Source: Planctomycetota bacterium
GTDB taxonomy: Bacteria > Planctomycetota > Planctomycetia > Pirellulales > Pirellulaceae
Length of the DNA: 64,000 nucleotides
Assembly: GCA_026692845.1 (NCBI GenBank)
Contig: JAPLNM010000042.1
Span: 1-64,000 of the forward strand
Direction: 5' to 3'
Shown: one piece after another, positions 20,429 to 24,152 of the stretch
Layout: every line of letters begins with the position of its first letter
Numbering within the stretch: position 1 is the first letter of the stretch
Made by a program: the position numbers and the translations under genes
Notes under the pieces: model-generated
Told to the model about the DNA's origin: nothing
Seen by the model: the letters and a program-made list of their open reading frames with translations, nothing else
Databases searched by the model: none

Positions 20429-21454
20429 ATGCTTAAGAAATCAAATCGCACGGCAAATCGCACCGTATGTACGAACCTACCTTCGGGCTTCACCCTAGTT
20501 GAATTGCTGGTGGTCATCGCGATCATCGGAATTCTGGTCGGATTGCTGCTTCCGGCCGTCCAAGCGGCCCGGGAAGCGGCCAGGCGCATGCAGTGCAGCA
20601 ACAACATGCGACAGATCTCGCTTGCGGCCATGAATTACGAATCGGCCTACAAACGGCTTCCCGCATCCCGTATCTCGCTGACCGCAGACCGTCTAGGTCC
20701 TGCAAGCAGCATTTCGGTCCACGCGCGTTTGCTCCCATTCATGGAAGCCAACCAAATCTATTCACTGGTAAATTTTGGTGCCGAATGGAATGACCCACGC
20801 AACGACACAGCAAGGCTTACCAGCGTCCCGACATTCCGCTGTCCATCGGATCCGTCCTCCAATATCCCAGCCACAGCAGGTGGAGTGAACAACTACTACG
20901 TCAATTCCGGTACCGTGCCACTATGGAACCGAACCATCGCCAGCCCGCTACCTCAAGTCCCCGATTGCAACGGCGTGTTTTTCCGAGATTCGTTTCTCAA
21001 ACTCGCTTCGATCACCGATGGATTGAGCAACACGGCCGCAGTTTGCGAACGCCTTACGGGTGATTTCTCAAACACCAAATCGACCCTAAAAACCGATACC
21101 TTCAACCCCGGCACCAATATCCTCACGGCCGACGAAGCGCTCCGCGATTGCAACGCGATCAACGTCGAAGACCTTAGCAAACAAGGTTTCTCCGATATCG
21201 GCGCTCCTTGGATCCGTGGGTACCACTCGACAACCGAGTACTACCACATCAACGTACCTCACGGTCGCTCGTGCATGTTTCCTCCAGGACGCATCATGAC
21301 GACGGCAAACTCCCAACACGCCAATTTGGTCAACATGGCCTTGGTCGATGGCTCTACGCAAAGCGTTTCGGCCAACGTCGACCTGGTCATCTACCGAGCC
21401 CTCGGGACCCGAAACGGCGGCGAAGTGGTTAATCTCTCAGAAATCACTCAGTAG
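20429..21454 (+). CDS. DUF1559 domain-containing prepilin-type protein (second copy)
   Basis: A 341-residue paralogue of the protein at 16638. The ATG at 20429 (MLKKSNRT) gives a short basic leader before the prepilin-like segment [18 protein letters not shown]; the longer in-frame start at 20333 would put about 50 residues before it and is less likely. The DUF1559 domain continues with [52 protein letters not shown] and ends with NLVNMALVDGSTQSVSANVD. The two copies are near identical over the N-terminal helix and diverge afterwards. The AhpD-like gene starts 20 bases after its stop, so the two are probably co-transcribed. Confidence 0.92.
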   Translation: MLKKSNRTANRTVCTNLPSGFTLVELLVVIAIIGILVGLLLPAVQAAREAARRMQCSNNMRQISLAAMNYESAYKRLPASRISLTADRLGPASSISVHARLLPFMEANQIYSLVNFGAEWNDPRNDTARLTSVPTFRCPSDPSSNIPATAGGVNNYYVNSGTVPLWNRTIASPLPQVPDCNGVFFRDSFLKLASITDGLSNTAAVCERLTGDFSNTKSTLKTDTFNPGTNILTADEALRDCNAINVEDLSKQGFSDIGAPWIRGYHSTTEYYHINVPHGRSCMFPPGRIMTTANSQHANLVNMALVDGSTQSVSANVDLVIYRALGTRNGGEVVNLSEITQ

Positions 21455-21473
21455 CTCAGAAAGGCTCACCCTA

Positions 21474-22769
21474 ATGAAAATCAATTGGATTGCTTTGCTG
21501 GCTATCTGGGCCATTTCTTTTGCCTGCCGATCGGGACTTGCACAAGAAGAATCTCAGGGGACACCCAAGTTGACCCCAAAGACCCGTTCGGAACTCAAAG
21601 ATCTCCTTGGGGTACTCAAGGATCGAACGGCCCGATTGCCCGTTCCCGAAACGGTGCCTGGAGGTACCAACCCGGCCAGCTCGAACGTGATCAACGGCAG
21701 AGCGCGACGGTACTATCTCCCGGAAGCTTGGCTGCAGGCCGAGCGTTGGGGAAACGAAGCCGAATCGAAGGTGTCCTATGAGCTCAAGACCCAATGTTTT
21801 TGGGTCGTTTCTCGGGGCAACAACTGCCACTATTGCTTGGGGCATCAGGAGCACAAGCTCAAGCTAGCTGGTCTGAGCGACGATCAGATCGGCGCGCTGG
21901 ATCGCAACTGGGATTCCTTGGACCCTCGAACTCGAAAAGGGGTCGAACTGGCTCGAAAAATGACCGTTCTGCCGTTTGCTCTGAGCGATCGGGACGTGGC
22001 TGCCTTGAAGTCTGAGTACTCCGATGCTGAGATTGTGGAATTGGTTTACAGCATCGCGAGATTCAATTCGATGAACCGCTGGACCGATTCGATGGGCTTG
22101 CCCCAAGACCCCCAAATGCGCGGTGAGAGTGTCGAGTTCGACACGCCCACTTCCTCCCAATGGGATCAAGGTGAGTCGTTGGTCGTGGCAGGCTCAGATA
22201 TCGTTCGCCCGACGGCCTGGACTTGGCAGGAATGCCAAAAGCAACTGCAGATGTCCGCGACGCGAGGGCCTCGCGTGCAGTTGGTATCGAAAGAGTCTAC
22301 AGCAGAGCTTCTGGGGCTTAACAGCAACGAAGTTCATGATTGGCATCGCGCGATGGCCACCTTGCCAGCGGCCGGTCCGGAAATGGTCCGAGCCTGGACA
22401 GCTATGTTGAGCGACCCAGAGTTAGCTCCCGAGATCAAAGCCGCGATTTGCTGGACGACGGCCCGCAATAATCGAGCTTCGAGTTCCCTGGCGATGGCCA
22501 AAAGGTTCGCGGATCAACTCAAGATCTCCGAGCAACAGATGCAAGCATGGGAATCAAACGATGCAGAGAAATCAACGCCAGGACTAGCCCAAGCCATCGC
22601 GTTTGCAAAAAAGGTGACCTGCGATCCGACGAAGATCACCGATGCAGATATCGCCCGGTTGCGTGAAGTCTTCAGCGACCGACAAACGGCCCATGTGATC
22701 TACACCGCAGCGACAGCCAACGCTCTAGATCGCTTCACCGAAACACTCGCTCTGGCGGTCCCCAACTGA
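21474..22769 (+). CDS. Exported tandem AhpD/carboxymuconolactone-decarboxylase-like protein
   Basis: A 431-residue protein with a signal peptide (MKINWIALLAIWAISFACRS, cleavage near GLAQ). The first AhpD-like domain carries CHYCLGH (118-124), the CxxC-plus-His redox motif of alkylhydroperoxidase D. It is followed by EIVELVYSIARFNSMNRWTD. A second domain (about 300-430) has the same helical pattern, LAPEIKAAICWTTARNNRA and TAHVIYTAATANALDRFTE, but Ala-Arg-Asn replaces the CxxC. So one domain keeps the redox pair and one is degenerate. Family members act in peroxide defence or thiol chemistry; an exported two-domain form suggests envelope oxidative stress, which is inference. It follows the second DUF1559 gene by 20 bases. 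Confidence 0.85.
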   Translation: MKINWIALLAIWAISFACRSGLAQEESQGTPKLTPKTRSELKDLLGVLKDRTARLPVPETVPGGTNPASSNVINGRARRYYLPEAWLQAERWGNEAESKVSYELKTQCFWVVSRGNNCHYCLGHQEHKLKLAGLSDDQIGALDRNWDSLDPRTRKGVELARKMTVLPFALSDRDVAALKSEYSDAEIVELVYSIARFNSMNRWTDSMGLPQDPQMRGESVEFDTPTSSQWDQGESLVVAGSDIVRPTAWTWQECQKQLQMSATRGPRVQLVSKESTAELLGLNSNEVHDWHRAMATLPAAGPEMVRAWTAMLSDPELAPEIKAAICWTTARNNRASSSLAMAKRFADQLKISEQQMQAWESNDAEKSTPGLAQAIAFAKKVTCDPTKITDADIARLREVFSDRQTAHVIYTAATANALDRFTETLALAVPN

Positions 22770-23090
22770 CGCGAAGAAGAAGAAAAGAAGGGAACGCAAA
22801 GGGGCAAAGGCGCAAGGGCGCAAAGAAAACAGAAAACAGAAAACAGGAAGTAAGAATTAAGAAGTAGGAAATCATTGATTCGATTGCCACACGGTTTTTA
22901 GCTTTGCGTCCTTGCGCTTGCCTCTTTGCGTTCCCTTCTTCTCTTCTCTTCTCTTCTCTTCTTCTTTGCGTTTGCGTTTGCGTTTGCGTTCCCTTCTTGG
23001 ATGCCATCTGTTAGCAAGTCGTTTTGAGCTCTACAATTCGGCAACGCGGCAGGCTTCTGTGTCGCAAGATATCCAACCAATCGCAAATTC
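22770..23090. repeat. Large imperfect inverted repeat with GCAAAG motifs and a 6-bp tandem repeat
   Basis: There is no gene in this 320-base gap. The left arm (about 22773-22825) contains GAAGGGAACGCAAAG, then GGGCAAAGGCGCAAG and GGCGCAAAG. The right arm (about 22902-22955) is nearly its reverse complement: CTTTGCGTCCTTGCGCTTG, then CCTCTTTGCGTTCCCTTC and a CTTCT-rich run. The arms are about 50 bases, 80-90% matching, with a spacer of about 76 bases that includes GAAAACAGAAAACAGAAAAC. TTTGCG is then repeated four times (22966-22990), and GCGTTCCCTTCTT appears a second time. It resembles dispersed intergenic repeats rather than a terminator. Confidence 0.75.
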
Positions 23091-24152
23091 ATGCATCCGT
23101 TCGAAAAACAGCTTCGAACTAACGACAACTCCTTGCTATCCCTCCTGATACGCGGTGCGCTTTGGGGGGCTTCGTTCCCCTACCAAGCGGCTGTCGTTTG
23201 CCGCAATCAAGCTTACCGGTACGGCTGGCTCCCGACGATTAGGGCCACTGTACCGGTGATTTCCGTCGGGAATCTCACTGCAGGTGGAACTGGAAAAACG
23301 CCGGCCTGTGCGTGGATAGCCAAGTGGTTGCGGAAACGAGGCAACCGCGTGGCCATTCTATCCCGAGGTTATGGAGCGCTTGCGGATGGGCTCAATGACG
23401 AGGCTCGTGAACTCGAATCGCTACTGCCCGATGTACCGCACTTGCAAGCCTCCAACCGCGTCGAAAACGCTCGCCTTGCTGTCGAGGAACTTGGGATGCA
23501 AGTGCTGCTTCTGGACGACGGATTCCAACACCGTCGACTTGCGAGGGACCTGGATATCGTCCTGCTCGACGCTACGAACCCTTTTGGATGGGGCCATCTG
23601 CTGCCTCGCGGATTGCTTCGAGAACCCCTCAAAGGGCTTCGACGCGCCGATCTGGTCATCGTCACACGGTGCGACCAAGTTTCCATGCAAGATTTGGCAA
23701 ATCTCAGGACCAAAGTCCAGCGGTTCAACCCCAAGGCAGGCTGGGTCGAGAGCATTCACGCTCCGGTACGATGGAAAAATGCTTCCGGGGAATCGCTCCC
23801 GTTGGAGGCACTCGGAGGAAAACCCGCGATGTCCCTGTGCGCGATCGGGAACCCCAAAGCCTTCGTCAAGACATTGCAGGATCTGGCCATTCCCGTGCTC
23901 GAACAAGTCCACTTCCCAGACCACCATCCCTATAGCCCGATGGATGTCCAAGGCATCATCGAACGAGCCTCTCAAAGCAGTGTGCCCCCGCAAGTCATCC
24001 TTTGCACTGGCAAGGATCTAGCGAAACTAGCGAGTGATCGAATCGGACCGATCCCGCTTTGGGCACTGGAGATCGAACTGCAAATCGTTTCGGGGGCCAA
24101 GGTGCTCGACGAACACCTCGAGCGTCTGTGCGAAACGATCCAAGTATCGTAG
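23091..24152 (+). CDS. lpxK: Tetraacyldisaccharide 4'-kinase
   Basis: LpxK phosphorylates the 4' position of the lipid A precursor disaccharide-1-phosphate at the inner membrane. The 353-residue length is normal. Residues 55-72 contain VPVISVGNLTAGGTGKTP with the Walker A loop (60-71). Then follow RVAILSRGYGA, DVPHLQASNRVENARLAVEE, the LLLDDGFQHRRLARDLDIVLLD block characteristic of LpxK, LLPRGLLREPLKGLRRAD, and a second domain ending with the acceptor-side FPDHHPYSPMDV. The N-terminal hydrophobic helix (about 15-35) is the membrane anchor of the family. Its presence indicates that the organism makes lipid A. No other lpx genes are in the window. Confidence 0.95.
   Translation: MHPFEKQLRTNDNSLLSLLIRGALWGASFPYQAAVVCRNQAYRYGWLPTIRATVPVISVGNLTAGGTGKTPACAWIAKWLRKRGNRVAILSRGYGALADGLNDEARELESLLPDVPHLQASNRVENARLAVEELGMQVLLLDDGFQHRRLARDLDIVLLDATNPFGWGHLLPRGLLREPLKGLRRADLVIVTRCDQVSMQDLANLRTKVQRFNPKAGWVESIHAPVRWKNASGESLPLEALGGKPAMSLCAIGNPKAFVKTLQDLAIPVLEQVHFPDHHPYSPMDVQGIIERASQSSVPPQVILCTGKDLAKLASDRIGPIPLWALEIELQIVSGAKVLDEHLERLCETIQVS

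Follow-up and report, generated by a model that had tools for sequence, protein, structure and literature searches.

The window, the whole 64,000-nt stretch of Planctomycetota DNA analysed here, contains a 321-nt intergenic gap between two genes on the + strand. The upstream gene is carboxymuconolactone-decarboxylase/peroxidase-related (21348–22769 in the list of open reading frames, with a probable ATG at 21474); in a profile search it scores 67.8 bits against TIGR01926, under the family cut-off of 81.8. Its stop abuts the left arm of an imperfect hairpin of about 200 nt (22769–22971), which is built from tandem GCAAAG words and followed by a TTTGCG tail. The downstream gene is lpxK (tetraacyldisaccharide 4'-kinase; 23091–24152, + strand), matched by TIGR00682 at 176 bits (cut-off 91.95).

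The left arm (22769–22825, + strand), delimited by pairing, folding and alignment to the first hairpin of two relatives (G303 and G313, below), comprises a GA-rich stretch and the tandem words AACGCAAAG-GGGCAAAG-GCGCAAGG-GCGCAAAG. It leads into a 76-nt loop (22826–22901) which opens with 7-nt tandem words, CAGAAAA, and whose AAAAC.. start resembles the loop of the first G303 hairpin. The right arm (22902–22971), with CTTTGCGTCCTTGCGCTTGCCTCTTTGCGTTCCCTTCTT and a TCTTC run, is on pairing and folding an imperfect reverse complement of the left. The core arms (22778–22807 and 22918–22947) are 93% complementary over 30 nt, with additional pairing between 22769–22788 and 22952–22971. The tail (22965–22998) contains four tandem TTTGCG units (22965–22988) and the second of two copies of TTTGCGTTCCCTTCTT (22925–22940 and 22983–22998), and similar GCGTTCCC-type tails follow the second G303 hairpin. 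Allowing up to one mismatch, GCAAAGNNGCAAAG matches the window five times against 0.55 expected, and four of these five matches lie within the element.

Under RNA folding energies the + strand of 22768–23000 reaches −101.7 kcal/mol (z −8.3; 0/200 shuffles as good), and the − strand −88.2 kcal/mol (z −5.3). A first-pass annotation, made from the sequence alone, had described near-complementary arms, a fourfold TTTGCG tail and a second TTTGCGTTCCCTTCTT copy, able to form a long hairpin unlike an ordinary terminator. Pairing and sequence checks place all of these features as described, and the fold bears out the hairpin. An intrinsic terminator was rejected, there being no terminator-like site (GC stem plus T run) at 22600–23200. 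The nine matches in Rfam concern miRNA and snoRNA models; none reaches the gathering score, and they were taken as noise.

Dispersed copies and a gene at the same site

The host genome (G000; 5.24 Mb in 182 contigs) was searched by BLAST with 22770–23000 as the query. This returned 56 matches at E ≤ 10, and the genome-wide copy count that the first-pass annotation had called for finds, at E ≤ 0.004, the window and 12 other sites (contigs C131, C124, C105, C95, C146, C121, C165, C125, C108, C77, C106 and C44). The C124 copy repeats the window architecture with two facing arms around a different loop. An exact pattern, CGCAAAGNNGCAAAGNCGCAA, was present in 20 of 294 phylum genomes, spanning 19 of 210 genera, with nine matches in the host genome and none in the three genomes sampled from the same family; as a control, the reversed pattern matched once across these 294, in one other genome. 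The annotation would have been refuted by an element unique to this genome and absent from all relatives, a condition that fails because the repeat is dispersed and present in relatives. Its description as a dispersed planctomycete repeat holds as to dispersal and to presence in relatives but not as to restriction to the phylum, since GCAAAG words also occur in Nostoc and the overall build in many phyla (see below).

Genome G044 has 115 matches of the pattern. From 30 fetched loci, in some of which two matches belong to a single element, we aligned 18 elements, leaving out one shorter copy (L053) and copies whose ends missed the search expression. The aligned elements are 93–95 nt long, lie in two orientations and share homologous arms and loop at 88% mean column identity, while the sequences flanking them are unrelated. 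Flanking duplications, which the first-pass annotation had proposed looking for, were found at none of the 16 copies with full flanks. The G044 assembly has two GxxExxY genes with their own arms, built of words other than GCAAAG, and no GCAAAG-armed GxxExxY gene. Near 8 of the 18 G044 hairpins (e.g. L285, L295 and L298), no more than 60 nt away, stands a palindrome, GTTCC(A/T)GGAAC, which may be a target or a part of the element. Three host contigs (C146, C121 and C165; L011, L012 and L013) carry tandem arrays in which GCAAAG words alternate with several copies of a GTAGTGGATCTCCCG(T/C)AGAGATCCGGCTG-type unit, and this unit also occurs free of GCAAAG words on C112 (L026).

At two loci (L035 and L052) the repeats adjoin, by eye, the apparent end of a GxxExxY gene, and co-occurrence with this family was therefore tested. 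TIGR04256 is found in 139 of the 294 phylum genomes. Of the 20 that have the GCAAAG pattern, 19 contain this family (the exception being G203), as against 120 of the 274 that lack the pattern (Fisher p = 5e-6). The host has two strong copies. That on C143, matching both TIGR04256 and PF13366, has a CACAGAG hairpin on either side, the two in direct repeat; that on C133 begins at the edge of its contig, with a CTTTGCG-type stretch past its stop. Further matches on C30 belong to a 328-aa frame. For the second GxxExxY gene of this group (L062 in the host, L332 in G313, L335 in G303), a CTTTGCG-type stretch lies downstream in all three genomes, and CGCGAAG-type tandem words lie upstream in G313 and G303.

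Two relatives carry a GxxExxY gene in the very gap occupied by the window hairpin. In G303, of the same genus, with flanks 85% identical to the window on the upstream side and 81% on the lpxK side, the order is GCAAAG hairpin 1, an intact GxxExxY gene (TIGR04256, 120.8 bits) and GCAAAG hairpin 2, as pieced together from two contigs with a 41-nt end in common. G313 (Pirellula sp. isolate 49618_E55.4; L339) has the same hairpin–GxxExxY–hairpin order at this gap on a single contig; its upstream gene is 84% and its lpxK side 82% identical to the window, and its left hairpin matches window positions 22785–22841 at 89% over 57 columns. The upstream gene ends directly before the hairpin in both relatives, as it does in the window. 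In G294, also of the same genus, the upstream gene and lpxK lie on different contigs, with no such repeat in the stretches inspected. The window gap itself holds arms and a 76-nt loop, and no GxxExxY gene; the partner was invisible to the first-pass annotation because this copy has lost the gene or never had it. Since the gene stands at the same site in two relatives, loss in the window lineage is the simpler reading, and an independent gain in the relatives the less simple one. Judged from these sequence comparisons, the GxxExxY gene and one hairpin were most likely lost by recombination between direct-repeat hairpins.

Other sites differ in content between relatives. The C143 element is present in the host, G303 and G313 and missing from G294 contig C115, where the flanking matches stand 248 nt apart with no repeats. 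A second copy of the gene upstream of this element, 96% identical, is found on G294 contig C157 (L260) and breaks off within the left arm into unrelated sequence, which perhaps reflects contamination of that assembly or a rearrangement within the arm. We also compared one gap preceding an RND-type gene in 15 genomes of family f44, 12 of which could be assigned; the gene labels here, both "RND" and the upstream family name, come from reading the sequence and not from a profile. A type 1 GxxExxY element with GCAGAG words occupies this gap in four genomes (one with an internal deletion), and a fifth keeps a type 1 remnant. Another five have a type 2 GxxExxY element, built with CACAGAT words and broken in four of the five, while of the last two one has an S23 element and the other (G195) just 27 nt. 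One gene each of S23, type 2 and type 1 was confirmed by profile. Because the end of the 27-nt gap in G195 looks like a type 2 right arm, this site may once have been filled and since been cut back by deletion. No precise excision or insertion within a single species was seen among the genomes compared.

Tandem-word arms and the GxxExxY protein across taxa

In a collection of genome contigs, at least 585 GxxExxY stretches were confirmed among at least 588 candidates. The best 80 of these, by similarity to the host gene, were taken forward, and for 77 the flanking sequence sufficed for scoring; we refer to them as named loci. At 40 of the 77, facing arms outscored every one of 200 resamplings of the flanks under a first-order Markov model, and at 55 no more than 10 of 200 resamplings were as good, where about four loci would be expected. 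By record title, the loci that beat every resampling come from Planctomycetota, Bacteroidota, Verrucomicrobia, Acidobacteria, Chloroflexi, Gemmatimonadetes, Alpha- and Gammaproteobacteria, Nostoc and Anabaena, and archaea of the Methanosarcinales. At one Nostoc locus (L204) the GxxExxY gene is flanked by the GCAAAG word, as in the window. On this sequence evidence, elements of similar nuclease-plus-hairpin build occur across a wide range of bacteria and in some archaea.

For comparison with a control, flanks of planctomycete GxxExxY loci (5 of 30 fetched loci dropped for short flanks) were scored alongside those of rbfA, the sole control gene family (4 of 29 dropped). A permissive arm score of at least 20 was reached by 21 of 25 GxxExxY, 20 of 27 S23 and 6 of 25 rbfA loci; because this separates less well, a stricter scoring with a cut of at least 13 was adopted. 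The strict cut was passed by 43 of the 77 named loci and by 19 of 25 planctomycete loci, as against 0 of 25 for rbfA; it was missed by 34 named and 6 planctomycete loci. For six named loci on short contigs the gene end is placed to within 9 nt, in this scoring as in the arm-fit, correlation and mismatch results below. Among flank pairs drawn across loci, 6.0% of named, 19.7% of planctomycete (some of them orthologous) and 4.0% of rbfA pairs reach the cut. The left arm best fits its own right arm in 47 of 67 cases, a count aided by the arm-picking procedure. Element length over the 62 loci past the arm cut has a median of 487 bp and a range of 411–663 bp. Read by eye, the words are about 8–9 nt long and vary between elements (GCAAAG, CACAGAG, CACGGAG, GCAGAG, CATGAAG, CACAAAG and others), yet within one element both arms match. 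Protein identity and arm similarity are weakly correlated (rho 0.29; 0/999 permutations), which may reflect host composition. Upstream neighbours are on the same strand in 68 cases and the opposite strand in 18; as there is no baseline to set this count against, no argument is built on it.

Several loci show the element in particular settings. Arms are found on both sides of the gene in plasmid records of Bernardetia, Bacteroides finegoldii and Sphingomonas parapaucimobilis, and a Gemmatirosa plasmid record has a hairpin downstream of GxxExxY only. The Sphingomonas element lies between fabD and fabG, where the gap in S. paeninsulae (about 74% identical) is some 30 nt. At six loci (L067, L069, L080, L083, L078 and L085) N-terminal tails of the kind NHRDTE or HHGDTENTE and C-terminal tails of the kind RTQRPLR read like in-frame arm sequence, such that the arms seem to be partly translated into the ends of the GxxExxY protein.

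The GxxExxY family (TIGR04256/PF13366, PDDEXK_3) comprises proteins of about 125 aa, predicted from sequence to be PD-(D/E)XK nucleases. Alignments of 30 and 31 proteins show invariant G22, L26, E27, Y30, D67, E77, K79 and N108, of which the D67/E77/K79 set is the PD-(D/E)XK signature. The C143 protein of the host scores 133 bits against PF13366. A GxxExxY structure is predicted with confidence (pLDDT 94.7). The best PDB fold in Foldseek is Cas4 (4r5q; E 0.009, probability 0.99), a weak match; no fold match reached E ≤ 0.001 and no PDB sequence relative was found at E ≤ 1. Neither family model assigns a function more specific than membership of the nuclease superfamily. A place in a defence system was rejected, since two GxxExxY proteins matched none of the PADLOC models at E ≤ 0.01. 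The phage collection gave no match to the host protein at E ≤ 1e-8, and viral contigs yielded one relative (L259). GxxExxY is named in PMC8934634 and PMC12085832.

Proposed origin and mobility of the elements

The full element consists, we propose, of an inverted arm of tandem words of about 8 nt, a GxxExxY gene and a matching arm. Taking gene loss and a role for the nuclease together, we consider it probable that the window repeat is a gene-less, MITE-like copy of such an element; it is called a gene-less derivative because only arms and a 76-nt loop are found at 22769–22971. Recombination between two direct-repeat hairpins would remove the gene and one hairpin, much as in the formation of a solo LTR. 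The account is supported by the GxxExxY association, the partner at the same site, arm matching at the DNA level (below), the intact catalytic triad and the varied gap contents of relatives. Against it weigh the negative search for target-site duplications in G044, the loci that miss the strict cut, the cross-locus flank pairs that reach it, the single control family, the different loop at C124, the weak arm–protein correlation and Cas4 match, the lack of precise excision or insertion among the genomes compared, the build common to S23 elements, and G044, whose many GCAAAG hairpins coexist with GxxExxY genes armed by other words. That the nuclease moves the element we infer. Most likely it recognises the paired arms as element ends, perhaps as a cruciform or a single-stranded hairpin, and by cutting at the arms it could duplicate the element or place it in gaps between genes, with no visible target duplication. 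Gene-less hairpins would then be mobilised by the nuclease in trans or left behind by hairpin recombination. More tentatively, GxxExxY may be the mobility nuclease of a so far unrecognised class of bacterial and archaeal transposable elements made of DNA hairpins. In these a Cas4-like core would read the word spacing and not a fixed sequence, insertion into intergenic gaps would leave no target duplication and gene-less copies would spread in trans, with S23 elements, the 23S rRNA IVS among them, as a parallel class.

S23 genes (TIGR02436), found in 26 of 30 genomes, likewise lie within inverted arms of tandem words, here of 7 nt by eye. The strict cut is reached by 15 of 23 S23 loci (7 of 30 having been dropped for short flanks or matches) as against 2.8% of cross pairs. 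Since S23, a four-helix bundle and not a nuclease, has the same architecture, the GxxExxY gene may be a passenger. Both proteins would then ride in the loops of hairpins made or moved by a reverse transcriptase, a Y1 transposase, replication slippage or template switching, or a host enzyme. One architecture common to two unrelated small proteins speaks for this, as does the excess in G044 of 115 pattern matches over two GxxExxY genes whose arms have other words. We nonetheless judge it unlikely: word length, by eye, depends on the protein, the catalytic triad is retained in all aligned GxxExxY proteins, arms and proteins covary, if weakly, and the words are absent from the eight Y1 loci fetched.

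Improbable, to a greater degree, is that the hairpin is a selected RNA structure, such as a 3' mRNA stabiliser or attenuator, with an incidental link to GxxExxY. The better fold of the window + strand, the direction of both genes, favours it, but arm mismatches do not. On the gene strand G-U and A-C mismatches number 97 and 98 at 54 named loci, 20 and 25 at 21 planctomycete loci and 25 and 22 at 19 S23 loci. As G-U does not exceed A-C on one strand, arm matching is kept, or made, at the DNA level, and on the even split RNA structure was rejected as the main force. In five G044 copies folded the two strands fold about equally or either is favoured; the window has no terminator at 22600–23200; dispersed copies lie in unrelated flanks; and one and the same gap is occupied by different elements in related genomes.

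The link raised by the first-pass annotation, in which a RAYT transposase would move the hairpins as a REP/REPIN family, is highly improbable: the hairpins are intergenic and dispersed, REPs are reported in Planctomycetes in PMC3733652, and Y1 genes occur in all four genomes searched (G000, G303, G294 and G044; the two host matches, at 27.6 and 24.6 bits, are partial, both above the family cut-off of 23), but exact tandem GCAAAG or CACAGAG words stand at none of the 8 loci fetched of the 14 Y1 matches in these genomes, leaving RAYT unsupported there, and the gene actually found between hairpins is GxxExxY.

Returning to the gene-less derivative of a GxxExxY element, this reading invites comparison with known systems. 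In bacterial IS families, MITEs are short and gene-less, end in inverted repeats and have a relative that bears a gene. The present elements are MITE-like in having gene-less inverted-repeat copies and a gene-bearing relative. Their dispersed copies have homologous interiors in G044 (18 aligned copies), whereas in the host the C124 copy differs from the window in its loop. They are unlike MITEs in lacking a target-site duplication (16 G044 copies) and in a partner that is neither a DDE nor a HUH transposase. REPINs/RAYTs, REPtrons and TIRtrons are described, in PMC3116915 and PMC3733652, as dispersed short intergenic inverted-repeat hairpins, for which mobilisation in trans by a dedicated enzyme with its gene amid the copies is proposed. 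The window family likewise has short dispersed intergenic hairpins with an enzyme gene among the copies, but the RAYT enzyme is a Y1 HUH transposase, whereas the partner here is a predicted PD-(D/E)XK protein, and the arms, unlike those of REPINs, are tandem 8-nt words that vary in sequence between elements. The family thus resembles REPIN/RAYT systems or MITEs yet fails the defining features tested, namely a Y1 partner in the loci inspected and target duplication. Among the open-licence papers listed by literature searches we found no published description of the association between GxxExxY and inverted tandem-word hairpins. If GxxExxY is tied to such hairpins, a large uncharacterised family (139/294 phylum genomes; at least 585 stretches) would gain a role, and the "orphan" CACAGAG/GCAAAG-type repeats of environmental genomes would be one kind of element. 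A protein of 125 aa and 0.5 kb of DNA would suffice for a direct test.

The S23 elements have a counterpart in the Coxiella IVS, which PMC4990558 describes as a selfish element of 428 nt whose inverted repeats pair into a 28-bp stem enclosing a small ORF. Tandem GACAGAT heptamers precede the S23p ORF, and the element is located inside 23S rRNA, from which it is cut at the RNA level by RNase III. The inverted-repeat stem, heptamers and S23 protein are features in common with the S23 elements found here. The window element differs in being intergenic, with gene-bearing relatives that encode GxxExxY; its gap separates two protein genes and has neither a 23S rRNA location nor an S23 gene. These likenesses suggest that, if the account is true, the puzzle of the 23S rRNA IVS and S23 would join a wider intergenic class. 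On two host contigs (C108 and C77; L016 and L018) 7-nt tandem words, CAATCAT and CCTCAAG, adjoin GCAAAG arms, as an inverted pair in L016, and look like gene-less hairpins of the S23 class.
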